Shown: positions 438-23,340 of the stretch, one piece after another
Numbering within the stretch: the first letter of the stretch is position 1
Layout: the number at the start of each line of letters is the position of its first letter
Source of the DNA: Lysobacterales bacterium
GTDB lineage: Bacteria; Pseudomonadota; Gammaproteobacteria; Xanthomonadales; SZUA-38
Direction: 5' to 3'
Length of the DNA: 64,000 nucleotides
Assembly (NCBI GenBank): GCA_028285525.1
Contig: JANQOZ010000093.1
Location: 1-64,000, forward strand
The notes under the pieces: model-generated
The model's database searches: none
What the model saw: only the letters and a program-made list of their open reading frames with translations
Told to the model about the DNA's origin: nothing
Program-made: the position numbers and the translations under genes

Positions 438-1661
438 TCAGCTTAAGGCCCCAAAGATCCGGAAGCCGCCGATCCAGGTGCCCAGCATGGAGCCCAGGTT
501 GGAGAACACAAAAACCAGCAGAACGCGTGAAACCCGGTTGCGCCACCAGCCGGAGGGCGCAGTGACGTCGTCGCGCAGCGCGGAGAAATCAGCGACCCTC
601 GGCCGTCTAAGATAGGCCTCAACCGATGCCGTCACCATGCCCGCGGCGATGGTGGGGTTCAGCGAGGTCAGCGGGGCGGCCACGAATCCGGAGGCGACGG
701 TGAGCGGGTGGGCCCTGGCCGCGGCGGCTCCCAGGGCCGCCAGCGTTCCGTTGATCAGGACCCAAAAGACCACCAGCGACCAGCCGAGCTCGGGGCTTCG
801 ATAGAAGCCGATCCCAAAGCCGGTCAGGATCACGGCGGTGATGATCCAGGGCAGCGCCTTGACCCACTGCCCGCGGCGCGGCAGTTCGTTGAGCCGGGCA
901 AGCACTTCGGCTGGCTCAGCGTCAGCATTCTCAAGCTCCGCCGCCAGGCCTTTGAGGTGCCCGGCGCCGATGACCACCAGCACCTTGCTCACGCCTTTCT
1001 CGGCGCTCTGCTGCCGCAGGGCCGCCGCCATGTAGTGATCGCGCTCCTCGATGAGAGCCCGATACAGCGGCTCGGAGTTCTCTGCGAACTCGGCGAAGGT
1101 GTTTTCCAGCATGTCGCCTTCCTTGAGGCGCTCAATATCCTGCTCGGAGATTTCTTCCCGCGTTACGAGGCTGGTGATCAGCCCCCCGAGGATGCCAAGC
1201 TTGTCGAAAAAGCCGACAGCGCTCATCACACGTTTCAGCGTAATCCCGATATCCCGGTCGACAAGCAGGTGCGGGACACCGAGCGTCTCTGCTTCCTGAA
1301 GCGCCTGTTTCATCTCGGCGCCCGGCTCGATGCCAAACTGATCGGCCAGCCGCCGCTGGTAGGCGCCAAGCGCCAGGTTTGCGGCGACCAGGCCCGCCTT
1401 GCCCTGGCGGATGATCTTAAAGAGGTCGGTTTTTTCCCAGGAGTCGGGCTGCGTCAGGGCGTCGTATCGACTCTGGCACAGCTCGACTGCGATTGCGTCG
1501 AACGTCTGCTGCTGAGCCAAGGCGGTTACCGCCTCGACTGAACGCCTGGAGACGTGGGCGGTTCCGAGCAGAGTGTACTCAACGCCCCCGCTGGTAACGA
1601 CAACCAGCGGCTGGTCGACCAACTCCTCCGGCGCGTTTGTTGTGGTGGCTTCGCTGCTCAC
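438..1661 (-). CDS. TraB/PrgY-type (TraB/GumN superfamily) membrane protein
   Basis: 407-residue protein. The N-terminal domain opens with YTLLGTAHVSRRS (residues 29-41), the conserved GTAHVS signature of the TraB family, and has the matching internal VIGAGHLKGL motif. The last third (from about residue 265) holds several hydrophobic segments, consistent with membrane anchoring. In Enterococcus, TraB/PrgY shuts down peptide pheromone activity; the role in Gram-negative bacteria is not established. A longer frame opens at 1724, but I chose the GTG at 1661 because it forms a GTGA overlap with the stop of the amidase gene and the conserved domain begins shortly after. Being locked between polyamine enzymes and dusB suggests cotranscription, not a shared pathway. 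Confidence 0.85.
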   Translation of the reverse strand: MSSEATTTNAPEELVDQPLVVVTSGGVEYTLLGTAHVSRRSVEAVTALAQQQTFDAIAVELCQSRYDALTQPDSWEKTDLFKIIRQGKAGLVAANLALGAYQRRLADQFGIEPGAEMKQALQEAETLGVPHLLVDRDIGITLKRVMSAVGFFDKLGILGGLITSLVTREEISEQDIERLKEGDMLENTFAEFAENSEPLYRALIEERDHYMAAALRQQSAEKGVSKVLVVIGAGHLKGLAAELENADAEPAEVLARLNELPRRGQWVKALPWIITAVILTGFGIGFYRSPELGWSLVVFWVLINGTLAALGAAAARAHPLTVASGFVAAPLTSLNPTIAAGMVTASVEAYLRRPRVADFSALRDDVTAPSGWWRNRVSRVLLVFVFSNLGSMLGTWIGGFRIFGALS

Positions 1662-2545
1662 CGCGCGGACCGCTGCAGGATGGGGGCGTAGCGATCCACC
1701 CGCCGGTCGCGGAAGAAAGGCCACACCCGGCGGACCGTTTGCTGTCGCTGCCGGTCGATCGTTGCCAGCAGCGTCTCGGCCCGGTCGTGGCTGGCGCTGG
1801 CCAGCAGCTCACCCTGTGGGCCCGCGACAAACGAGGCGCCCCAGAACTGCTGTCCGGGCGAGTCGCCAGCTGGTTCCCGGCCAATGCGGTTGCAGGCGAG
1901 CACCGGCAGGCTGTTGGCGATCGCGTGACCGCGCTGCACCGTTCGCCAGGCATCGTGCTGGCGCGCCTGCTCGGCACTGTCGTCGGCGTCGTCCCAGCCG
2001 ATCGCCGTGGGATAGACCAGCAGGTCCGCACCGTCCAGCGCCAGAATACGCGCCGCCTCGGGAAACCACTGGTCCCAGCAGATCAGGACCCCGAGGCGGC
2101 CAACGCTGGTCTGGATACACTGAAGCTCGCCGTCACCGGGCGTGAAGTAGTACTTTTCGTGGTAGCCCGGGTCGTCCGGAATATGCTGTTTGCGATATAC
2201 GCCGGCGAGCCGTCCATCACTGTCGGACACGACCGCCGTATTAAAAAACAGGCCAGGCTCACGGCGTTCGAACGTCGAGCCGACGATCACCAGACCGTGC
2301 CGGGCGGACTGCTCACTCAGCCAGTCGCTGTAGGGACCAGGCAGTGGCTGCGCCAGATCAAAGCTGGTAAGGCTGTGTGTCTGACAGAAGTACGGGTGCA
2401 GATGCAGCTCCGGCAGGAGCGCCAGCTCGGCGCCAGCGTCAGCCGCTTCCGCCAGCGCGTGCTCGGCCGCTGAGCGCGCCCGATCCTGGCTGGCGTCTGC
2501 TCCGAGCTGAAGCAGCGCCACCTTGAGTGTTGCGGCGGCGATCAA
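1658..2545 (-). CDS. aguB: N-carbamoylputrescine amidase
   Basis: Nitrilase-superfamily hydrolase that converts N-carbamoylputrescine to putrescine, CO2 and ammonia, the second step of the agmatine route. The Glu-Lys-Cys triad is visible: E46 in LPELHLHPYFCQ, K119 in YRKQHIP, C156 in LICWDQWFPE. DDPGYHEKYYF after the Lys is typical of the plant and bacterial AguB group. With the TTG start at 2545 the protein is 295 residues, the usual family length; this TTG overlaps the TGA of the deiminase gene, indicating translational coupling. A longer in-frame opening to 2620 would add residues that only overlay the upstream gene. Downstream it overlaps the TraB-family gene by four bases. Confidence 0.93.
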   Translation of the reverse strand: MIAAATLKVALLQLGADASQDRARSAAEHALAEAADAGAELALLPELHLHPYFCQTHSLTSFDLAQPLPGPYSDWLSEQSARHGLVIVGSTFERREPGLFFNTAVVSDSDGRLAGVYRKQHIPDDPGYHEKYYFTPGDGELQCIQTSVGRLGVLICWDQWFPEAARILALDGADLLVYPTAIGWDDADDSAEQARQHDAWRTVQRGHAIANSLPVLACNRIGREPAGDSPGQQFWGASFVAGPQGELLASASHDRAETLLATIDRQRQQTVRRVWPFFRDRRVDRYAPILQRSAR

Positions 2546-3591
2546 TGGCGGAGTGTGCCGAGGGGCAGATTCATCGTGGCGCAGTGCACGGCGCCACCCT
2601 GGGTGATCAACACCCGACAATCGATCCCGATGACCTCAAATCCTGGAAACGCGGTACCGATCACTCGGGCTGCCTGCTGGTCGTGCTCATCGTCCCCATA
2701 GGTGGGCATCAGCACCGCGCTGTTCAACACCAGGAAATTGGCGTAGCTGGCGGGGCACCGGTAAAGCCCGCTGCCGACCGGCGAGGGCATCGGCAGTTCA
2801 AGCAGGCGGTAAGGTTTGCCGGACAGCGTTCGAAACGTTTCGAGCTGGGACCTCATCGACTGAATAAACGGGTAGTGGGGGTCGGACGGCAGCTGACACC
2901 CCTGGTATACGATCGTGTTGTCGGGCGCGAAACGCGCGAGCATGTCCACGTGGCTGTCCGTGTCGTCGCCCAGCAGTTCACCGTGCTCCAGCCACAGCAC
3001 GCGCTCTGCGCCCAGATGCAGGCCCAGGTTGGCGGCGACCCGACGCTTGCTGAAATCGGTGTCCCGGCTGCGCCAGCAGCGGGTGGTTGTCATGACGGTT
3101 CCCATACCGTCGGAGTCGATCGCGCCGCCTTCCATGACGTAGGGATAGTTTTGAAACGGCAGCGTATTGAACTGCGGCTCGGCCCACAGCCGGGATGCCA
3201 GCGATGCGTCGAGCGGGTGATGGCTGCGCCCGCCCCAGCCGTCGAAGACAAAGTTGGCCCAGGCCGGGCGGCCAAGGTCGTCGAACAGGGTGATGGGCGC
3301 GGTGTCGCGCAGCCAGGTGTCGTCGTATTCGGTGGCCACCACGATTACAGGGTGTTTGCCGCCAGGATCCGACCAGCAGTCCTCGGTAAGCAGGTCTTCG
3401 CCGCGAATGCACAGCACCACTGGCTGGTACCGCCGAATAGCCGCGATGAGTTCCCGATAAGTCTGCTGCGCGTAACGCAAGACCGGCGTCCAGTCAGACC
3501 CTTCAAACGGCCAGGCGAGCAGGACCGCGTCCTGCGGCTCCCATTCGGCCGGCAGCCGCCACCGGGCTTCGACTGTTGGCTGATTCAGCAT
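2542..3591 (-). CDS. aguA: agmatine deiminase
   Basis: Cytosolic enzyme that hydrolyses agmatine to N-carbamoylputrescine and ammonia, feeding the amidase encoded directly downstream. It belongs to the peptidyl-arginine deiminase/guanidino-modifying fold. Visible landmarks are TWLRDTAP (D96), MEGGAIDSDG (residues 153-162), LEHGELLGDDTDSHVD (H214) and the catalytic cysteine in GGAVHCAT (C337). The usual motif reads GGGIHC, so GGAVHC is a mild variant. The ATG at 3591 gives 349 residues and a standard N-terminus; the frame stays open upstream to 3765 but that part has no family similarity. A 16-bp perfect palindrome lies just upstream. Confidence 0.94.
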   Translation of the reverse strand: MLNQPTVEARWRLPAEWEPQDAVLLAWPFEGSDWTPVLRYAQQTYRELIAAIRRYQPVVLCIRGEDLLTEDCWSDPGGKHPVIVVATEYDDTWLRDTAPITLFDDLGRPAWANFVFDGWGGRSHHPLDASLASRLWAEPQFNTLPFQNYPYVMEGGAIDSDGMGTVMTTTRCWRSRDTDFSKRRVAANLGLHLGAERVLWLEHGELLGDDTDSHVDMLARFAPDNTIVYQGCQLPSDPHYPFIQSMRSQLETFRTLSGKPYRLLELPMPSPVGSGLYRCPASYANFLVLNSAVLMPTYGDDEHDQQAARVIGTAFPGFEVIGIDCRVLITQGGAVHCATMNLPLGTLRH

Positions 3592-3611
3592 CCGTATTCG
3601 GTCCTTGACGC

Positions 3612-3627
3612 GGTTGCCGCGGCAACC
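3612..3627. promoter_or_regulatory. Perfect 16-bp palindrome upstream of aguA
   Basis: GGTTGCCGCGGCAACC is a perfect inverted repeat lying 20 bases upstream of the aguA start and 7 bases past the stop of the small exported protein gene. Position suits an operator for the agu operon. It has no T-run, so it is unlikely to be an intrinsic terminator. Function is inferred. Confidence 0.4.
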
Positions 3628-3634
3628 CAAAGAG

Positions 3635-3979
3635 TCAGTTCTGCTGTGGGGCAGTTTCGCTCTGGGTGGCGCGGTTGATGACCGAGTGAATAACCCGCTG
3701 ATACTCGAAGTAAACGGTGAAATTGTCATACACCCAGCGGGCGATAGGCGGATCCCCGACGGCACCGTAACGGTTGGCCGGCTCGCCGAACTTTTGGACC
3801 ACCTCGTCCATCGTCAGGCCGTTGACCGGAACGCTCATGTGCGCGGTTTTGGCCATGCGGTCGATCAGCAGGACGTCTTTACGCACCCCATCCTGGGCCC
3901 CGACACCGGCCGCGGTTAAAAGCAAAACGCATCCGCTGAGTAGCACCGGCAGGCGCCGCATTCGTTGTATTTTTATCAT
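3635..3979 (-). CDS. Small exported protein, conserved hypothetical
   Basis: 114-residue protein with a clear signal peptide: a basic start (MIKIQRMRRL) and a hydrophobic core ending at GVGAQDG. The mature part contains GLTMDEVVQKFGEP, then a two-strand stretch WVYDNFTVYFEYQRVIHSV. This layout, a helix with xxFGxP followed by short beta strands, resembles the BamE/SmpA-like small fold, but the similarity is only structural in style and I do not assign a function. The ATG at 3979 has a strong GGGGAGG ribosome-binding site; the frame is open to 4015 but that start lacks one. It could be cotranscribed with aguA 43 bases downstream. Confidence 0.75.
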   Translation of the reverse strand: MIKIQRMRRLPVLLSGCVLLLTAAGVGAQDGVRKDVLLIDRMAKTAHMSVPVNGLTMDEVVQKFGEPANRYGAVGDPPIARWVYDNFTVYFEYQRVIHSVINRATQSETAPQQN

Positions 3980-4212
3980 GACAGCCTCCCCAAAAGACGT
4001 GGGATATCGGCGCAAATTCTACCAAATTGCCGCCTTGCTGGCTGCACGGGCTTCACATTTGACGGATCGATCGCGGCTTTGTCCCCAGGTTTGGTTTAGG
4101 CTTCGAAGATCGCAGCCAGCCTTTTGATGCCGATACCGGCGTCAGCGGGCAATTCGTGTCAACCGGTCGGGACGGTGCTGCGTTGAACCACCGAGACCAC
4201 GGGAGTGTGCCT

Positions 4213-4650
4213 ATGCGAACCCTGATTTTTTGCCTTATCGCGCTAGCCAGTCTGCCGCTGCAGGCCGCCCCGGCGCTGCAGACAGGCCTGAACGGCACCT
4301 GGTGGAATCCGGACCAGGATGGTCAGGGTTTCGTGATTCACCTGATTCCCGACAGCAACCAGGTGTTCGTCGCCTGGTTTACCTTCGCCCCCGAGGGAGG
4401 CTCCCAGCTGTGGCTCACCGGATCTGGGACGCTCGATCAGCAGCCTATCGCGCTGGAGTTGACGCTCACCCGGGGTGGGGCACTCAACTCATCGTCAGCA
4501 CCCCCGGTCAACGAAAGCTGGGGCAGCGCAGAGCTCAGCTTCAGCAGCTGCACAGCCGGGCGGTTTGATTACGCCGGAGCCAGCAGCGGAACGATCTCAC
4601 TGGAGCGCCTGACGCCGGTGGTGGACTGCACCGAAGGAGCAGGGCGATGA
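4213..4650 (+). CDS. Small secreted protein with Trp/Gly-rich domain (copy 1)
   Basis: 145 residues: signal peptide (MRTLIFCLIALASLPLQA) then almost only one domain. Its landmarks are GTWWNPDQDGQGF near the start, a strand VAWFTF, the box LWLTGSGT, and a conserved ending with a Cys pair (SFSSC and VVDC). The same pattern recurs in the next gene and twice in the exoprotein at 20032. I do not recognise a named family for it. The ATG at 4213 is chosen because it starts the signal peptide; the frame is open to 4156. The stop overlaps the next start as ATGA, making this the first gene of a coupled block. Confidence 0.8.
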   Translation: MRTLIFCLIALASLPLQAAPALQTGLNGTWWNPDQDGQGFVIHLIPDSNQVFVAWFTFAPEGGSQLWLTGSGTLDQQPIALELTLTRGGALNSSSAPPVNESWGSAELSFSSCTAGRFDYAGASSGTISLERLTPVVDCTEGAGR

Positions 4651-5363
4651 CGCGCCTGAGACTCGTGACCGCTCTCTTTGTTGTTGCTGCGGTCCAAACC
4701 GTCGCGGCGACGACCCACGAGGTCTCAATACTCAGCAACCGATTCCTGCCCGAAGTGGTGGAAGCGCGTGCCGGCGACACCATCGTCTTTCGGGTGGTCG
4801 AGGGCAGCCATCGGCTGAGTGCGCAGGAGGGTCTTGCGATCAGCGGTCTGCCGAGCGGGCGGCTGTCTCCGGGCGATCAGCTCGAGCTCGCCGTGATCGA
4901 CCCACCCGGCGAATATTTCTTTCTTAGCGACGCGGAAGCCGGGATGCGGGGAGGGCTTCAGATTCTCGATGAGGCGCCGGCTTACACGATCGACAACCGC
5001 ATTTCCGCCGGCTGGTTCAACCCGGCCGCCGCTGGGCAGGGGCTGCTTTTCGAATATGTCCCCGCGACGAACGTACTGGTGGCCTACTGGTTCACGTTCG
5101 ACTTCAGCAGCGGCGAGCAGCTGTGGCTGGTGGGCAGCGGTACGCCCAGCGAGGGTCGGGCAACGCTCGAAATGCTGAGCGCAACCGGCGGCGTCATGAA
5201 CGCCTCCAATCCCGTCGACAAACCCGTCTGGGGTGAGCTGACGGTCGATTTCTCGAGCTGCGAGCGGGCCACCGCCTGGTTTAACGCCAGTGGCGCGCAG
5301 CAGTCCGGGCAAATTCCGCTCGACCGTCTGTACCTGACCAGCCTATGCGAGCAGGACCTATGA
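4647..5363 (+). CDS. Secreted protein: cupredoxin-like domain plus Trp/Gly-rich domain (copy 2)
   Basis: 238 residues. After a signal peptide ending near VAATTHE, residues about 24-105 look like a plastocyanin-type beta sandwich (NRFLPEVVEARAGDTIVF, then GSHRLS, then GEYFFLSD). In true copper proteins the first His is followed later by a Cys-His-Met set; here the later loop has neither Cys nor His (FLSDAEAGMRGG), so type 1 copper binding is doubtful. Residues about 110-238 carry the second copy of the Trp/Gly-rich domain (GWFNPAAAGQG, AYWFTFD, LWLVGSGT, and a Cys pair FSSC/TSLC). The gene is joined on both sides by four-base ATGA overlaps. Confidence 0.8.
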   Translation: MTRLRLVTALFVVAAVQTVAATTHEVSILSNRFLPEVVEARAGDTIVFRVVEGSHRLSAQEGLAISGLPSGRLSPGDQLELAVIDPPGEYFFLSDAEAGMRGGLQILDEAPAYTIDNRISAGWFNPAAAGQGLLFEYVPATNVLVAYWFTFDFSSGEQLWLVGSGTPSEGRATLEMLSATGGVMNASNPVDKPVWGELTVDFSSCERATAWFNASGAQQSGQIPLDRLYLTSLCEQDL

Positions 5364-6973
5364 ACATGATGAGCAGAAACCTGCGTGCCGGGACGGCAGC
5401 ATTTGACGGCCAGCGCGTCGCGGCGGTCCTCAAGCGGAGCAACATCGGTCATCACCTGCACCAGTGGCAGGCGGCGCAGGCCAAAACCGTCGAGCGTTCG
5501 CGCAAGGCGGTCGGTGACACCGCACAGCAGAGCCTGGTACACCTTCTGAACCGGACCTCTTTCGGAATCGCTGGCCCTGATCTTGAGCTGGCCCTGGATC
5601 TCGGGTTTGAAGGCTTTCTCGAGTACCAGCTGGACGCCGAGCAGATTGACAACACGTTCCTGGAAGAGCTGCTGGTCGACCTGTTCCCGAGCCTGGCGAT
5701 GAGCTACGGGGAGATTTTCGATCGGCTGTCTGATGACGACTTCGATCCGGTGTCTGAACTGATCGTCGCCACGATCGCCCGGCAGCTGTTCAGCCCGCGG
5801 CAGCTTTTCGAGGTGATGGCTGAGTTTTGGACTAACCATTTCAACGTGTTCCTTCTCGACGGGCCGGTGCAATACCTGAAGACCGTCGACGACCGGGACA
5901 ACGTCAGACCCTTTGCGCTCGGGCGCTTTGAGGACCTGCTGAGGGCCAACGCCCGCAGTCCGGCGATGCTCTATTACCTCGACAATTTTTCCAACACGCG
6001 CTTTGGGCCAAATGAAAACTACGCTCGGGAGCTGATGGAGCTGCACACGCTCGGCGTCGACGGCGGCTACACCGAAACAGACGTGATCGAAGTCGCGCGC
6101 TGCTTCACGGGCTGGACCATCGATACGCGAACCGAAGAGGTGTTTGTCTTCAGCGAGGCGAACCATGATGACGGCAGCAAGCGCGTGCTTGGGGTGGATA
6201 TCCCTGCCGGCGGCGGCATCGAGGACGGCGAGCAGGTGCTGGACCTGCTGCTGGCCGATCCGGCGACCGCGCAGTTCCTGGCCGGAAAGTTATGCCGCCG
6301 CTTTGTCGCTGATCAGCAGCCCGAAGCGCTGGTGAGTCGGGTGGCCGACACCTTTGCGGCAAGCGGGGGCGACATGGTTCCAGTGCTCAGGACCCTGCTG
6401 CTGTCAGACGAGTTCCGAGCTAGTGAGAATCAGAAATTCCGGCGCCCGACCGAGCTCGTCGGCGGCATGGTTCGGAGCCTCCAACCGGCCGACGGCAGCA
6501 ATTATTTTTCGGTCATCTTCCGTCAGCTTGAGACGCTGGGCCAGATCCCTTTCTTCGCGGCTGAGCCAACGGGCTATGGCGACGAGGAGGGCGACTGGCT
6601 CAACACCAACGCGTTACTCAGCCGCTGGAATCTGGGCTACTCGATCGCCTTCGGAGAAGTCCCGGCGAGTACGCGTGTCGATAGCGGCGACGGCGACGCG
6701 GGAGACGGCCGGCGCGAACCGGTCATGGCCGACTATTTTGCGATCCGCATGCTGGATCTGCTCGGCAGCGCGCGAACGCCCGCGGAGATTGTCGACCGGG
6801 TGCTGGATCAGTTTCTCCACCGTCAGGTGGGTGTCAGCGATCGCGCTGCCCTGATCAATCTGGCTGCCGGCGGCCAGCCGGCTACGGTACCTCTGAGTTT
6901 AAGTAACGCCGTCGCCGCCGCCAGAGCCGTCCTCGCCAGCTCGCTGGCATCACGCTACTTCCAGAATCGCTGA
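5360..6973 (+). CDS. DUF1800 domain-containing protein
   Basis: 537 residues matching the DUF1800 family: HLLNRTSFGI near residue 50, WTNHFNVF, PNENYARELMELHTLGVDGGYTETDV and ARCFTGW in the middle, and KFRRPTELV in the last third. The biochemical function of the family is unknown; it is very often encoded next to DUF1501, as here. No signal peptide is evident at the N-terminus. The ATG at 5360 overlaps the stop of the preceding gene as ATGA; a frame opening at 5345 is less likely. The DUF1501 gene starts 11 bases downstream. Confidence 0.9.
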   Translation: MNMMSRNLRAGTAAFDGQRVAAVLKRSNIGHHLHQWQAAQAKTVERSRKAVGDTAQQSLVHLLNRTSFGIAGPDLELALDLGFEGFLEYQLDAEQIDNTFLEELLVDLFPSLAMSYGEIFDRLSDDDFDPVSELIVATIARQLFSPRQLFEVMAEFWTNHFNVFLLDGPVQYLKTVDDRDNVRPFALGRFEDLLRANARSPAMLYYLDNFSNTRFGPNENYARELMELHTLGVDGGYTETDVIEVARCFTGWTIDTRTEEVFVFSEANHDDGSKRVLGVDIPAGGGIEDGEQVLDLLLADPATAQFLAGKLCRRFVADQQPEALVSRVADTFAASGGDMVPVLRTLLLSDEFRASENQKFRRPTELVGGMVRSLQPADGSNYFSVIFRQLETLGQIPFFAAEPTGYGDEEGDWLNTNALLSRWNLGYSIAFGEVPASTRVDSGDGDAGDGRREPVMADYFAIRMLDLLGSARTPAEIVDRVLDQFLHRQVGVSDRAALINLAAGGQPATVPLSLSNAVAAARAVLASSLASRYFQNR

Positions 6974-6984
6974 GGAATACGAGC

Positions 6985-8205
6985 ATGCGCAGAAGACAGT
7001 TTTTGTCCCTGGCAGGATTGGCCGGTATACCGTCTCTGGGACCCCAGCTGGTGTTTGGCTCTCCCGCAGAGAAGGCCGCCAGCGGCCGTGATGTGGTGGT
7101 CGTGATTTACCAGCGCGGCGCGGCTGACGGGCTGAACCTGGTGGTTCCCTATACCGAAGGCCCATATTTCGACGCACGGCCGACGCTGGCGATCGGCGAG
7201 CCCGGAAGCCCCGGCGGGGCGCTCGACCTCGATGGGTTTTTCGGGTTCCACCCGGACTTGAGTCCGCTCCTGCCGCTATATGAATCCGGCATGCTCGGGG
7301 TCGTCCACGCCGCGGGATCGCCGAGCGACTCGCGATCGCACTTTGACGCCCAGGATTTTATGGAGAAGGGGGTGCTGGAGAAAAACGTGGCGGCTGACGG
7401 CTGGCTCAACCGCTATCTGGCTGAGGTCAGCGGCGGCACGCCGGAAACCTTCGGCGCCGTGGGTTTTGGCAACGCCCTGCCGGTGTCGCTGCGTGGGCCA
7501 ATTCCGAGTGTCGGCGTCAAGCAGCTCGATGACTATGCGCTGGCCGCGCCGGACGAGTGGCTCCCCGCGATTCGCAACAACATCACCGCGATGTTCAATC
7601 AGCAGCAGTCGCTGGATAGCGTCGCGGGCAGCATTCTGGGCTCGGTTGATTTACTGGCGGCATCTGATCCGCTGTCGATTCCCGTCGAAAATGGGGCTCA
7701 GTATCCTGACGACACCTTCGGCGTGCAGATGTCCCAGCTCGCCAAGCTGATCAAGGCGGGCCTCGGGCTCGAGATGGCGGCCGTGGACATCAACGGCTGG
7801 GACCACCACGATCGGCAGGTGGACTACCTGGGTCCGCTGGCGTCGAGCCTGGCGCAGGGTATGAGTGCGTTCTACGCCGACATGGGGGAGGCGATGAGCG
7901 GCATCACGGTCATCACCATGACCGAGTTTGGCCGACGACTGACGGAAAATGCGTCTGAGGGAACCGATCACGGGCACGGCTCGGTGATGTTCGCCTTGGG
8001 CGGTGGGGTAAACGGCGGCCAGGTGATTGCCGACTGGCCGGGGCTGCAGCCGCAGAACCTGGATCGCGGCGATCTGGACGTCACCACGGACTTTCGCACG
8101 GTCCTCAGCGACATGTTGATTAACCGCGCCGGCAGCAGCAGCGTTGACCAGATCTTTCCTAGCTTTGACGGGCCGCAATCGATCGGGCTGTTTCGTCCGC
8201 TCTAA
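6985..8205 (+). CDS. DUF1501 domain-containing protein
   Basis: 406 residues of the DUF1501 family, distantly related to sulfatase/alkaline-phosphatase-like folds. The N-terminus (MRRRQFLSLAGLAGIPSLG) is a Tat-type signal. Family landmarks are IYQRGAADGLNLVVPY, the SRSHFDAQDFME segment, GWDHHDRQ, and TMTEFGRRLTENAS followed by TDHGHGSVMFALGGGV. The His/Asp-rich motifs suggest metal binding, but activity is not known. It closes the four-gene block with DUF1800 and the two Trp/Gly-domain proteins. The downstream hairpin at 8251-8272 can end transcription from both sides. Confidence 0.92.
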   Translation: MRRRQFLSLAGLAGIPSLGPQLVFGSPAEKAASGRDVVVVIYQRGAADGLNLVVPYTEGPYFDARPTLAIGEPGSPGGALDLDGFFGFHPDLSPLLPLYESGMLGVVHAAGSPSDSRSHFDAQDFMEKGVLEKNVAADGWLNRYLAEVSGGTPETFGAVGFGNALPVSLRGPIPSVGVKQLDDYALAAPDEWLPAIRNNITAMFNQQQSLDSVAGSILGSVDLLAASDPLSIPVENGAQYPDDTFGVQMSQLAKLIKAGLGLEMAAVDINGWDHHDRQVDYLGPLASSLAQGMSAFYADMGEAMSGITVITMTEFGRRLTENASEGTDHGHGSVMFALGGGVNGGQVIADWPGLQPQNLDRGDLDVTTDFRTVLSDMLINRAGSSSVDQIFPSFDGPQSIGLFRPL

Positions 8206-8245: not shown

Positions 8246-8272
8246 AAAAAAAATCCTGCCGCAGCAGGATTT
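8246..8272 (-). terminator. Bidirectional intrinsic terminator between DUF1501 gene and rpmJ
   Basis: A perfect 9-bp stem (8251-8259 with 8264-8272, loop CGCA) is followed on the minus strand by eight T residues (complement of 8246-8253). It lies downstream of rpmJ and also downstream of the plus-strand DUF1501 gene, where the trailing sequence TTTCTCTT is a weaker U-tract. Confidence 0.85.
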
Positions 8273-8317: not shown

Positions 8318-8443
8318 TCAGCGCTGGCGCGCTTTGAATCGCGGATTGGATTTGCAGATCACAAACAGCTTGCCGCGACGGCGGACCACCTTGCAGTCGC
8401 GATGGCGCTGTTTGGCTGACTTGAGCGATGACAAGACTTTCAT
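8318..8443 (-). CDS. rpmJ: 50S ribosomal protein L36
   Basis: 41-residue very basic protein beginning [17 protein letters not shown] and containing [21 protein letters not shown]. The wording matches the second, zinc-poor L36 type (YkgO-like, with SSLKSAKxRH) rather than the short MKVRxSVKxxC form. Only two Cys remain (C17 and C30), so the zinc ribbon of standard L36 is incomplete; such paralogues are often made under zinc limitation in Gammaproteobacteria, but in some lineages this form is the only one. It is monocistronic, with its own terminator. Confidence 0.93.
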
Positions 8444-8474
8444 GGCGGCTTTCCGTTAACCAACAAAGCCTCCT

Positions 8475-19929: not shown

Positions 19930-20031
19930 TCGGATCGTATCGGGCCGCGTGACCGGCTATCGCCGGCCCACCAGCCGGAGCGCGCCAAAGCCGCTATGAT
20001 GTACGGCACCTGCCGTAGCAAATGGTGGTCT

Positions 20032-23000
20032 ATGGTTTTTGTACGCGTGCTCGCGGTCCTGACGACGTTTGTCCTCGGCTGCCTGTGGCTGCGGCCCGAT
20101 CCGGCGCCCGCCGGTCCCGCAATTCCCCGTTCGGCCCTCGAACTGCCGAAGGCCCACGCGTATGAGCGCGCGCGATGGCACGTGCTTCGAAGACTGCCGG
20201 CCGGCGCAACGGAGCTTCCGGCACAGGCACTCGATCGGGCTCGAGACGCGGCGGCCAGGCTGCCGCGTTCACGCGCAGCGGAACGCTACGCGCAGCGGTT
20301 CAGCGAAAAGGCTGCTGCGGCCTGGGAACCGCTGGGGCCTGACCGGAAAGGCGGTCGCACCCGGCGGATCGTCTTTGACGACCAGCGACGCATGTACGCG
20401 GCCGGCGTGTCCGGCGGCGTTTGGCGTTTTGACGGTGGCCGCTGGCGCCCGCTGGGAGACCGGCTCACAAACCTCAACGTCGGCGCGCTGGCGATCGCGC
20501 CCGGCGTCGGGAAAGACGACACCGTGGTGCTCTACGCTGGGACCGGCGAACTGTATCGACGGACCAATCGGCCCTACGCCAGCATGACCGGGTCCGGGAT
20601 CTATAAATCCACCAACGGCGGCGACGACTGGGTACAGCTGTCGGCAACCGTCAACGACAACTTCCTTTACGTCAGCGACCTGGTGATCTCCCCCGCCAAT
20701 CCGAATCGGATCTATGCCGCGACCAACACGGGCGTCTGGCGATCGGACAACGGCGGTGCCAGCTTCGAGGTGTCGCTGTCGACGATGGAGGGGGAGATCA
20801 ATCGCTTTGAAGGCTGTACGGACCTCGAGCTGCTCGATCTCGGCGGCGCGGATCGTCTGCTCGCCACCTGCGCGTCGCGATCCACCGACGATCGCTATTT
20901 TCTTCCCGGACTGCTGCCCGGCGGCTGCTCGGGGCCGTGCGACGCGCGCATTCTGCTCAACGAGACGGCGGATCTTTCCGATCGCTGGGAGGTGGTGCTG
21001 ACCGAACCCGGCATGGGCAGAACTTCGCTGGCCGCTTTCGCCGGCGATCCCGGTGTGGTCTACGCGCTCAGCGCCAGCACGCGGCCCGGTCCGGACAAGA
21101 CCGGCGACGGCATCGGCGACTACGACAACGGTCTGCATGCGGTCTTCCGCAGCAACGACGCGGGCGCAACCTGGGAACCTACGTTGCGTAACACCAGCGA
21201 CGACCCGGTGAGCACCTGGATGCTGTCGTTTGCCTGGCAGGCGCGAACGGATGGCAACACGCCCTACAGCGCCGGCTGGTACAACCAGGCGGTTGCGGTG
21301 GATCCGGTGGACCCAGACGTGGTCTGGGTTGGCGGTATGCAGCTTTACCGTTCGGACGACGGCGGCCGCCAGTTCGGCCTGACCTCCAACTACTTCAGCG
21401 ACCGCGACATTCCTGCATCGCAAGGTCCCGAGATGCACCCGGATATCCACGCGCTGGTCTTCGATGAGGCCGGCCAGCTATGGGTCGGCAACGACGGCGG
21501 CGTGTGGCGCGTTCGCAATCAGTCGGCGCCAACCAACCGGACCCGCGACGGTTACCGAACCGTGCTCACATCGGGCGTGCGGTTTGACGCTGAGGTGCGC
21601 GACTACACGACGACGCAGTTCTATCACGGCACCGTGTCCCCCGACGGTCAGTTGGTGCTGGGCGGGATGCAGGACAACGGCACGGACGTCTTTAATCATC
21701 CGGGGTTTCCCGGTCAGTGGGTCACGTTTTTCGGCGGTGACGGCAGCTATACGGCATTCAATCCGATCGACGAATTGCTTTACGTGTCGGCCCAGAATGG
21801 CTACCTGGCCAGGGTTGACCGAAACCTTGAGTACACGATCCTGGCGGACCGGCTGTTCGCGGAGGCGGTTGATCCCGATGAGTTTATGTTCATCACCCCC
21901 TTTGTTCTGAACCCCGACAATCCCTCGACCGTGTTTGTCGGGGGCAAGCGGCTGTTTCGCGGCAATTTCGACGGTCAGATTTTCAACCGCGCGTCAGCAC
22001 CCTTCGGCACCACGTTTTTCGACAAGGCCAACGCGGTAGCGGCAGCGCGCGGCGGGACCGCGGTTCTGGTCGGTACCGGCAACGCCATATATCGAATCGC
22101 CTCTGGTGACGCGGCGACGCAGGCGACCGTCCCGAACCGCACCACGCCGCGAGAGGGCTGGGTATCGTCGCTGACTTTTGATCCAGGGAATCCCGACGTT
22201 GCCTACGCAACGTATTCGAGTTTTGGCGGCGACCACGTGTTCCGATCCCGCGACGGAGGTTTGAGCTTCCAGCCGATTGACGGCAGCGGGGCAGGGCGCC
22301 TGCCCGACCTTCCGGTTCACTCGCTGGCGGTACATCCCGATGAGCCGGATTCCCTATACGTCGGGACTGATCTGGGCGTCTTTTTCACCGCTGACGGCGG
22401 CGAGAACTGGCAGGTGGAGGAGACGGGCTTCGGCGGGACGATTGTCGAGCGCGTGGTGATCAACGAGCCGCAGACCGACGGGACGGCCTACCTGTTCGCT
22501 TTCACCTACGGCAGGGGCGTGTGGCGCGTGCCGCTGAGCGAGGTGGACGGCGCGCCCGGCTATGTGCTCACGTCAGCGGTCAACGGCCTCTGGTACGACC
22601 CGGCTGAGCCGGGTCACGGGATCCAGGTACAGCTCATCGAGGGTGAGTCGGCGCCGCAGCTGCTGGTGACCTGGTACGTGTACGACAACGGCGAACCGCG
22701 CTGGCTGATCGGTTCGGGAACCGTGAGCCGCGATCGCGCCGTGGTCGATATGACGGTCACACGCGGCGGCGATTTTGGCGCTGCTTTTGATGCCGGCAGC
22801 ATCATCCGAGAACCCTGGGGTCAGCTCGAGCTGGTGTTCCGCGATGAAAACTCGCTGTCGCTGCGCTGGCAGTCAGCGTATGAGTCGGGTCAGAGCGGCA
22901 CGCTGGCGATGGCGCGCCTGAGCCAGCCCCGAGATATTGCGGTGCCGGGTCTGCCGGTTTCGCTGTGTTCGACCTCTGTCTACTACAACCCGAGCCAGGA

Positions 23001-23340
23001 CGGCCACGGCATGGTGCTCGAAACGGTCGAAACGGACGGTGAACCCGGGATTGCCTGGTCCTGGTTCCACTATCGTGATGGCAATCAGCTGTGGCTGGTG
23101 GGCAGCGGCACCTTCGCGGACGGCACGCTGGAAACAGAGGCGTTTGCCGGAAGAGCGGGACAGTTCCCACCGGCCTTTACGGCCGATGCAGCATTGGTTG
23201 AACGCTGGGGAACGGTGTCGTTTGAGTTTCTCGGCGAGCGTGAGTTCATCGCAAGCTGGGCGCCGGACGATCCGACGCTGTCGCCAGACTCGCTGCACTT
23301 CAGCCAGCTGACGACACTCTCGCAAAGTGGTTGTAACTAG
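20032..23340 (+). CDS. Large secreted BNR/sialidase-propeller exoprotein with two Trp/Gly-rich domains
   Basis: 1,102 residues. A signal-like anchor (VFVRVLAVLTTFVLGCLWL) is followed by two seven-bladed propeller-type regions built of BNR/Asp-box repeats: SGGVWRF, SDDGGRQFGL, GNDGGVWRV, SRDGGLSFQP, TADGGENWQ. This is the VPS10/sortilin and glycosyl-hydrolase-like propeller layout often seen in secreted proteases and glycan-binding proteins. The last ~250 residues contain two copies of the Trp/Gly-rich domain found at 4.2-5.4 kb: GLWYDPAEPGHGIQ...RWLIGSGT and YYNPSQDGHGM...LWLVGSGT. No catalytic site is recognisable. The ATG at 20032 is preferred over 19996 because it starts the hydrophobic segment. 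The stop overlaps the MFS gene end by 4 bases. Confidence 0.85.
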   Translation: MVFVRVLAVLTTFVLGCLWLRPDPAPAGPAIPRSALELPKAHAYERARWHVLRRLPAGATELPAQALDRARDAAARLPRSRAAERYAQRFSEKAAAAWEPLGPDRKGGRTRRIVFDDQRRMYAAGVSGGVWRFDGGRWRPLGDRLTNLNVGALAIAPGVGKDDTVVLYAGTGELYRRTNRPYASMTGSGIYKSTNGGDDWVQLSATVNDNFLYVSDLVISPANPNRIYAATNTGVWRSDNGGASFEVSLSTMEGEINRFEGCTDLELLDLGGADRLLATCASRSTDDRYFLPGLLPGGCSGPCDARILLNETADLSDRWEVVLTEPGMGRTSLAAFAGDPGVVYALSASTRPGPDKTGDGIGDYDNGLHAVFRSNDAGATWEPTLRNTSDDPVSTWMLSFAWQARTDGNTPYSAGWYNQAVAVDPVDPDVVWVGGMQLYRSDDGGRQFGLTSNYFSDRDIPASQGPEMHPDIHALVFDEAGQLWVGNDGGVWRVRNQSAPTNRTRDGYRTVLTSGVRFDAEVRDYTTTQFYHGTVSPDGQLVLGGMQDNGTDVFNHPGFPGQWVTFFGGDGSYTAFNPIDELLYVSAQNGYLARVDRNLEYTILADRLFAEAVDPDEFMFITPFVLNPDNPSTVFVGGKRLFRGNFDGQIFNRASAPFGTTFFDKANAVAAARGGTAVLVGTGNAIYRIASGDAATQATVPNRTTPREGWVSSLTFDPGNPDVAYATYSSFGGDHVFRSRDGGLSFQPIDGSGAGRLPDLPVHSLAVHPDEPDSLYVGTDLGVFFTADGGENWQVEETGFGGTIVERVVINEPQTDGTAYLFAFTYGRGVWRVPLSEVDGAPGYVLTSAVNGLWYDPAEPGHGIQVQLIEGESAPQLLVTWYVYDNGEPRWLIGSGTVSRDRAVVDMTVTRGGDFGAAFDAGSIIREPWGQLELVFRDENSLSLRWQSAYESGQSGTLAMARLSQPRDIAVPGLPVSLCSTSVYYNPSQDGHGMVLETVETDGEPGIAWSWFHYRDGNQLWLVGSGTFADGTLETEAFAGRAGQFPPAFTADAALVERWGTVSFEFLGEREFIASWAPDDPTLSPDSLHFSQLTTLSQSGCN

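Follow-up and report, generated by a model that had tools for sequence, protein, structure and literature searches.

The four genes at 4213-8205 of the window (the whole stretch of 64,000 nucleotides of a Lysobacterales genome that was analysed) almost certainly form a conserved operon, in which a DUF1800/DUF1501 pair is preceded by two genes that share a Trp/Gly region of about 110 amino acids, hereafter the WG domain. The association is more than chance: 10 genomes show the same gene order with tight junctions, and dN/dS is low. There is strong support for regarding the WG domain, a predicted beta barrel, as one unnamed domain family.

The four-gene block and its conservation

Open reading frames and Pfam matches confirm a block of gene 1, gene 2, DUF1800 and DUF1501, all on the plus strand (Table 1). 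The two ATGA overlaps, at 4647 (gene 1/gene 2) and 5360 (gene 2/DUF1800), and the gap of 11 bases between the DUF1800 stop codon and the DUF1501 ATG, as given in the preliminary description, were read directly in the DNA of the window. The DUF1800 and DUF1501 proteins score above the cut-offs of their Pfam models (26.1 and 27, respectively), gene 1 has no family match in Pfam, NCBIfam or PHROG, and the sole Pfam match of gene 2 is a sub-threshold cupredoxin.

Table 1 Features of the four-gene block
Feature	Coordinates	Strand	Remarks
Gene 1	4213..4650	+	145 aa; signal peptide and a single free-standing WG barrel domain; orthologs in f1 and f8
WG barrel domain of gene 1	4288..4614	+	WG profile 124 bits; model pLDDT 93.4
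Gene 2	4647..5363	+	238 aa; signal peptide, cupredoxin-like domain with a broken copper-ligand set, WG barrel
WG barrel domain of gene 2	5001..5333	+	WG profile 106 bits
Gene 3, DUF1800 protein	5360..6973	+	537 aa; PF08811 399 bits; no evident signal peptide; helical model, pLDDT 88.5
Gene 4, DUF1501 protein	6985..8205	+	406 aa; PF07394 105 bits; Tat signal MRRRQFLSLAG; conserved Asp/His positions
Hairpin 3' of DUF1501, possible terminator (weak candidate)	8251..8272	+	4 such sites found, 4.5 expected by chance

When close DUF1800 relatives were taken with their upstream DNA, WG genes were found directly 5' of DUF1800 in 10 genomes from three families of one order (Lysobacterales/Xanthomonadales): four in the family of the window's own genome (f1: G000, which is that genome, G001, G002 and G003), four in f8 (G035, G353, G363 and G378), whose block holders include the cultured Marinicella litoralis and M. 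meishanensis, and two in f6 (G008 and G018, in the latter of which a contig end cuts the first of the two WG genes). The preliminary description had conceded that the association would be local chance if the small genes were absent 5' of the pair in close relatives; the block's presence in these 10 genomes speaks for its view that the small genes belong with the pair, as do the full-length gene-2 relatives in named genomes, all six of which directly precede DUF1800-DUF1501. Where gene starts were resolved, the junctions among relatives range from -4 to +15 bases, the exceptions being gaps of +34 and +36 before DUF1501 in two genomes; the junction script left gene 2 unresolved in two genomes, one of them that of the window. 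Between the window's genome and its congener G001, dN/dS is 0.14, 0.08, 0.07 and 0.06 for genes 1-4, values that are rough because dS is near 1, and that indicate purifying selection on all four genes.

In a tree of 40 DUF1800 proteins, the eight block members of f1 and f8 form one clade (support 98/96) divided by family, and the f6 block pair falls outside it. The genes flanking the block in f1 are unlike those in Marinicella. The block is missing at 30 of the 40 tree loci, among which L146, L148 and L149 have upstream DNA too short for a judgement. At the other DUF1800 loci in the window's genome no WG gene or gene-2 relative lies close by, and most DUF1800/DUF1501 pairs in the order lack WG partner genes. 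The term "obligate" that had been applied to the small cistrons is thus not supported. In f11, a DUF2145 gene encoding an accessory exported protein stands before DUF1800/DUF1501 (L100:4261-5070, L103:1804-2619).

A DUF1800/DUF1501 gene pair occurs, for example, beside bacterial chitin synthases (PMC5122149). The pair described there shares with the present one the adjacent, co-oriented genes and the twin-arginine signal on DUF1501, whereas here no chitin synthase lies in the operon and two coupled WG-barrel genes precede the pair. The flanks are instead a small secreted protein and, on the other strand, an agmatine-deiminase-type gene, with a separate 242-aa GT2 gene on the 3' side. The region 1658-4015 comprises agmatine-deiminase-type and nitrilase-type genes and a small exported protein, which has a DVLLIDRMAKTA motif and no Pfam match; G001, G002 and G003 likewise have this protein and the deiminase adjoining the block, and in G006 there are agmatine genes close to DUF1800. 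At 8323-8445, on the minus strand, a reading frame judged by eye to resemble ribosomal protein L36 converges on the end of the block.

The WG domain, its hosts and its predicted fold

Genes 1 and 2 have one homologous region in common (37% identity, E 4e-19). The preliminary description, in speaking of two small Trp/Gly proteins, had recognised this region correctly but too narrowly, since the two are members of a genome-wide domain family. Searched against the window's own genome, gene 1 matched 58 places, of which 50 reached E 4e-4 or lower, and an iterated WG profile run on the fetched stretches of this genome found 56 copies in 43 proteins. The hosts include peptidases (S41, M14, M64), alpha/beta hydrolases, a GDSL lipase, a cyclophilin, a sorbosone dehydrogenase, several beta-propellers and a cytochrome-like CXXCH protein; by a hydropathy rule rather than a trained predictor, 39 of the 43 have a hydrophobic, export-like N-terminal stretch. 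The profile matches 140 of 200 genomes of the order compared with 3 of 274 drawn from the class, and the further matches in a phylum-wide draw are weak, partial and confined to three genomes of one other family. In six relatives the copy numbers are 61, 29, 75, 18, 17 and 46. CylK, the best match of the WG profile among PDB sequences (E 0.002), was rejected as a relative because the match is partial and spans only 30 residues. Within the same window, a large sortilin/BNR-type exported protein (19996-23340) has two WG barrels at its C-terminus, and on contig C94 of the same genome three WG-domain proteins are clustered on one strand within about 6 kb (L031:4650-11020).

Single modules borne by many exported proteins are familiar from carbohydrate-binding modules (CBMs) and from sorting domains such as the T9SS CTD and PEP-CTERM. 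The WG domain resembles these in being attached to many unrelated exported proteins, mostly at the C-terminus (32 of 43 hosts), but it also occurs at the N-terminus (6), internally (5), in two copies (13) and, as gene 1, free-standing, which is not the behaviour of a C-terminal sorting domain.

AlphaFold predicts the mature gene 1 protein with confidence (pLDDT 93.4, pTM 0.85) as an almost all-beta, eight-stranded up-and-down barrel of the calycin type. The natural structures nearest to the model are streptavidin (VIA Z 9.3, 99 residues, rmsd 3.2) and avidins; the top matches as a whole are designed barrels (up to Z 10.2) and avidins, at Z 8-10, and Foldseek alone returns nitrophorin-type lipocalins with E 0.02 at best. 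A GxW motif on the first strand and an Arg on the last one is the calycin pattern. The corresponding WG residues are G11-x-W13 on strand 1 and R115-L116 on strand 8, with G, W and R conserved in 79%, 84% and 78% of the sequences at positions 11, 13 and 115; also conserved are W38-F39-T40-Y41 on strand 3 and W50 on strand 4. By hhalign, no relation of WG to lipocalins (E 0.15) or avidins (E 0.14) is detectable, both comparisons giving a probability under 1%, and so the likeness to the avidin/streptavidin family and to lipocalins stays at the level of a predicted fold and we do not claim common descent. A search of 143 genomes of the class for the avidin family gave no match and is uninformative since the control was silent too; a viral structure library gave no match under E 0.15. 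WG further differs from the calycin barrels in being attached as a module to dozens of proteins in each genome and in having an extra pair of Cys residues, one in mid-domain and one just after the last strand. Both Cys residues are present in 37 copies, only one or only the other in 4 and 2, and neither in 13 (Fisher p 1e-7, a rough value because the copies are related); this coupling suggests that they form a disulphide.

The cupredoxin-like domain of gene 2 and WG domains fused to DUF1800

A profile search identifies the N-terminus of gene 2 as plastocyanin/amicyanin-like (E 3e-10; the cupredoxin fold of PF00127 and PF13473), which might be taken to mean that gene 2 is a blue copper protein and the block a copper electron-transfer system. 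A Copper-bind match with its Cys, His and Met ligands in place in the gene-1 counterpart of G008 lends itself to the same interpretation. The His-Cys-His-Met set of a blue copper site is, however, broken in gene 2: in all seven aligned gene-2 proteins the first His is kept, the Cys is replaced by Ser and the second His is gone, and gene 1 has no cupredoxin domain. On these ligand losses we rejected copper electron transfer as the role of the block, which is highly improbable. Plastocyanin-WG genes with intact copper ligands occur without DUF1800 in G013 and G014. Fusions of this type that retain the ligands lie at L181:2975-3736, L184:3217-3984 and L180:2911-3681, and two of the three are not beside a DUF1800 gene. 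A likely history is that a plastocyanin-WG gene was duplicated, the gene 1 copy having lost its whole cupredoxin domain and the gene 2 copy its copper site.

A second, independent link between WG and DUF1800 is provided by G017, where two WG domains precede DUF1800 within a single protein of 904 residues, with an intact plastocyanin-WG gene before it and a DUF1501 relative after it. Families f4, f11 and f2 yielded eight such WG-WG-DUF1800 genes, spread over seven genomes, and among those checked only that of G017 has a plastocyanin gene in front. Their DUF1800 is far from that of the window (about 16 bits). A separate DUF1800 lineage thus has two WG domains in cis, so that two WG domains accompany each DUF1800 in both arrangements, in trans here and in cis there; this shows that DUF1800 proteins gained WG modules more than once. 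WG being promiscuous, its fusion to DUF1800 says little on a direct WG-DUF1800 contact. The fusion loci (L180:3802-6513, L217-L222) encode WG-WG-DUF1800 proteins of about 900 aa, and in several of them DUF1501 then follows.

Export, possible function and alternative readings

Genes 1 and 2 encode Sec-type signal peptides and DUF1501 has, by eye, a twin-arginine (Tat) signal, an RR signal being present on DUF1501 in nearly all relatives. At the N-terminus of the block DUF1800 proteins of f1 and f8 no hydrophobic stretch is seen (12-residue maxima of 0.2 to 1.14), and several other DUF1800 proteins begin with an RR signal of their own. The preliminary description of a four-gene secreted block is accordingly supported by signals in genes 1 and 2 and in DUF1501, but not by one in DUF1800. 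If DUF1800 and DUF1501 were exported together through Tat as a folded complex, both the signal-less DUF1800 and the RR signal on DUF1501 would be explained, and from the hydropathy scan we infer that the two proteins may leave the cytoplasm in this way.

DUF1501, which we take to belong to the alkaline-phosphatase clan, has the invariant residues D48, S118-H119, D273, H275 and D328-H329, and is probably the catalytic part of the pair, a putative metallohydrolase of the alkaline-phosphatase type. The DUF1800 model is confident (pLDDT 88.5) and mostly helical. Against the PDB, Foldseek found nothing for it under E 0.27 and its VIA Z did not exceed 3.0, although a long model can hide single-domain matches; it therefore yields no functional hint, and DUF1800 may have an undescribed fold. 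A sequence search of the PDB with DUF1800 and DUF1501 found nothing, and the literature found on the two together gives no function.

We propose that the operon yields the DUF1501/DUF1800 pair and two separately exported WG-barrel proteins. DUF1501 would take DUF1800 out as a folded complex, the products of genes 1 and 2 would exit through Sec, and the WG barrels would be modules for docking or ligand binding, bringing the pair to the place where many other WG-tagged enzymes work, probably at the cell surface or on a surface polymer. Taken as a whole, with DUF1501 as the probable catalyst, we put this reading forward tentatively, as plausible and falling just short of probable. It is consistent with the block in 10 genomes, the DUF1800 clade, the adjacency of gene 2, the WG domains in cis and the exported WG hosts; against it stand the promiscuity of WG, the many DUF1800/DUF1501 pairs of the order that have no WG partner, and an alkaline-phosphatase-type assignment of DUF1501 that no PDB sequence match accompanies. 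A study of Wenzhouxiangella AB-CW3, of the same order, detected no proteolysis in the medium and inferred that the proteases of this bacterium are anchored to the outer membrane (PMC7691419). This would fit WG as a retention module, though the WG domain goes unmentioned in the passages of that paper concerned. The suggestion in the preliminary description that the small proteins are substrates of the pair finds no support, and the idea that the pair processes WG proteins generally was dropped, since 140 of the 200 genomes searched in the order have WG whereas the block is in 10; a secretion system, also suggested in that description, is not supported.

The same barrels might instead be substrate-binding, CBM-like modules that bring the pair and other enzymes to a polymer outside the cell rather than to its own surface. 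WG is attached to many hydrolases, its conserved aromatics are neighbouring residues of strands 1 and 3 that could give an exposed binding face, and weak CBM_56 matches exist, but these cover only about 25 residues and fall below the cut-off, and the cyclophilin, the cytochrome-like CXXCH protein and the propellers among the hosts suggest no obvious common substrate; we regard the CBM-like role as somewhat unlikely. WG could also be a folded signal for export or sorting that a secretion system of, for instance, type II reads. This would account for the predominance of C-terminal WG domains and for their expansion across the order, yet N-terminal and two-copy hosts and a gene 1 that is the domain alone make it very unlikely. 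The WG genes could also be inherited baggage, a plastocyanin-WG gene pair having landed before one DUF1800 lineage and been carried along without a joint function. Plastocyanin-WG genes do occur elsewhere without DUF1800 (G013 and G014), and in G006 the same agmatine-gene neighbourhood carries DUF1800-DUF1501 without WG genes. Mere carriage is nonetheless hard to reconcile with the start/stop overlaps and purifying selection, or with a block kept in two families with differing flanks and a similar pair in f6, and we consider it quite improbable. A further reading, in which the WG barrel defines an order-wide surface-display system with one shared receptor or polymer on the cell surface holding the 17-75 WG-tagged exported proteins of each genome, DUF1501/DUF1800 being tagged in trans or in cis, is speculative and in our judgement unlikely.

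DUF1800 and DUF1501 are widespread and have no known job, and their four-gene form in culturable Marinicella offers a small, testable unit that comes with partners. The WG domain, of which genomes across a bacterial order hold dozens of copies each, is not named in Pfam, NCBIfam or PHROGs. A name would bring annotation to some 45 proteins in the window's genome alone, and could show by what means these bacteria hold enzymes at their surface.
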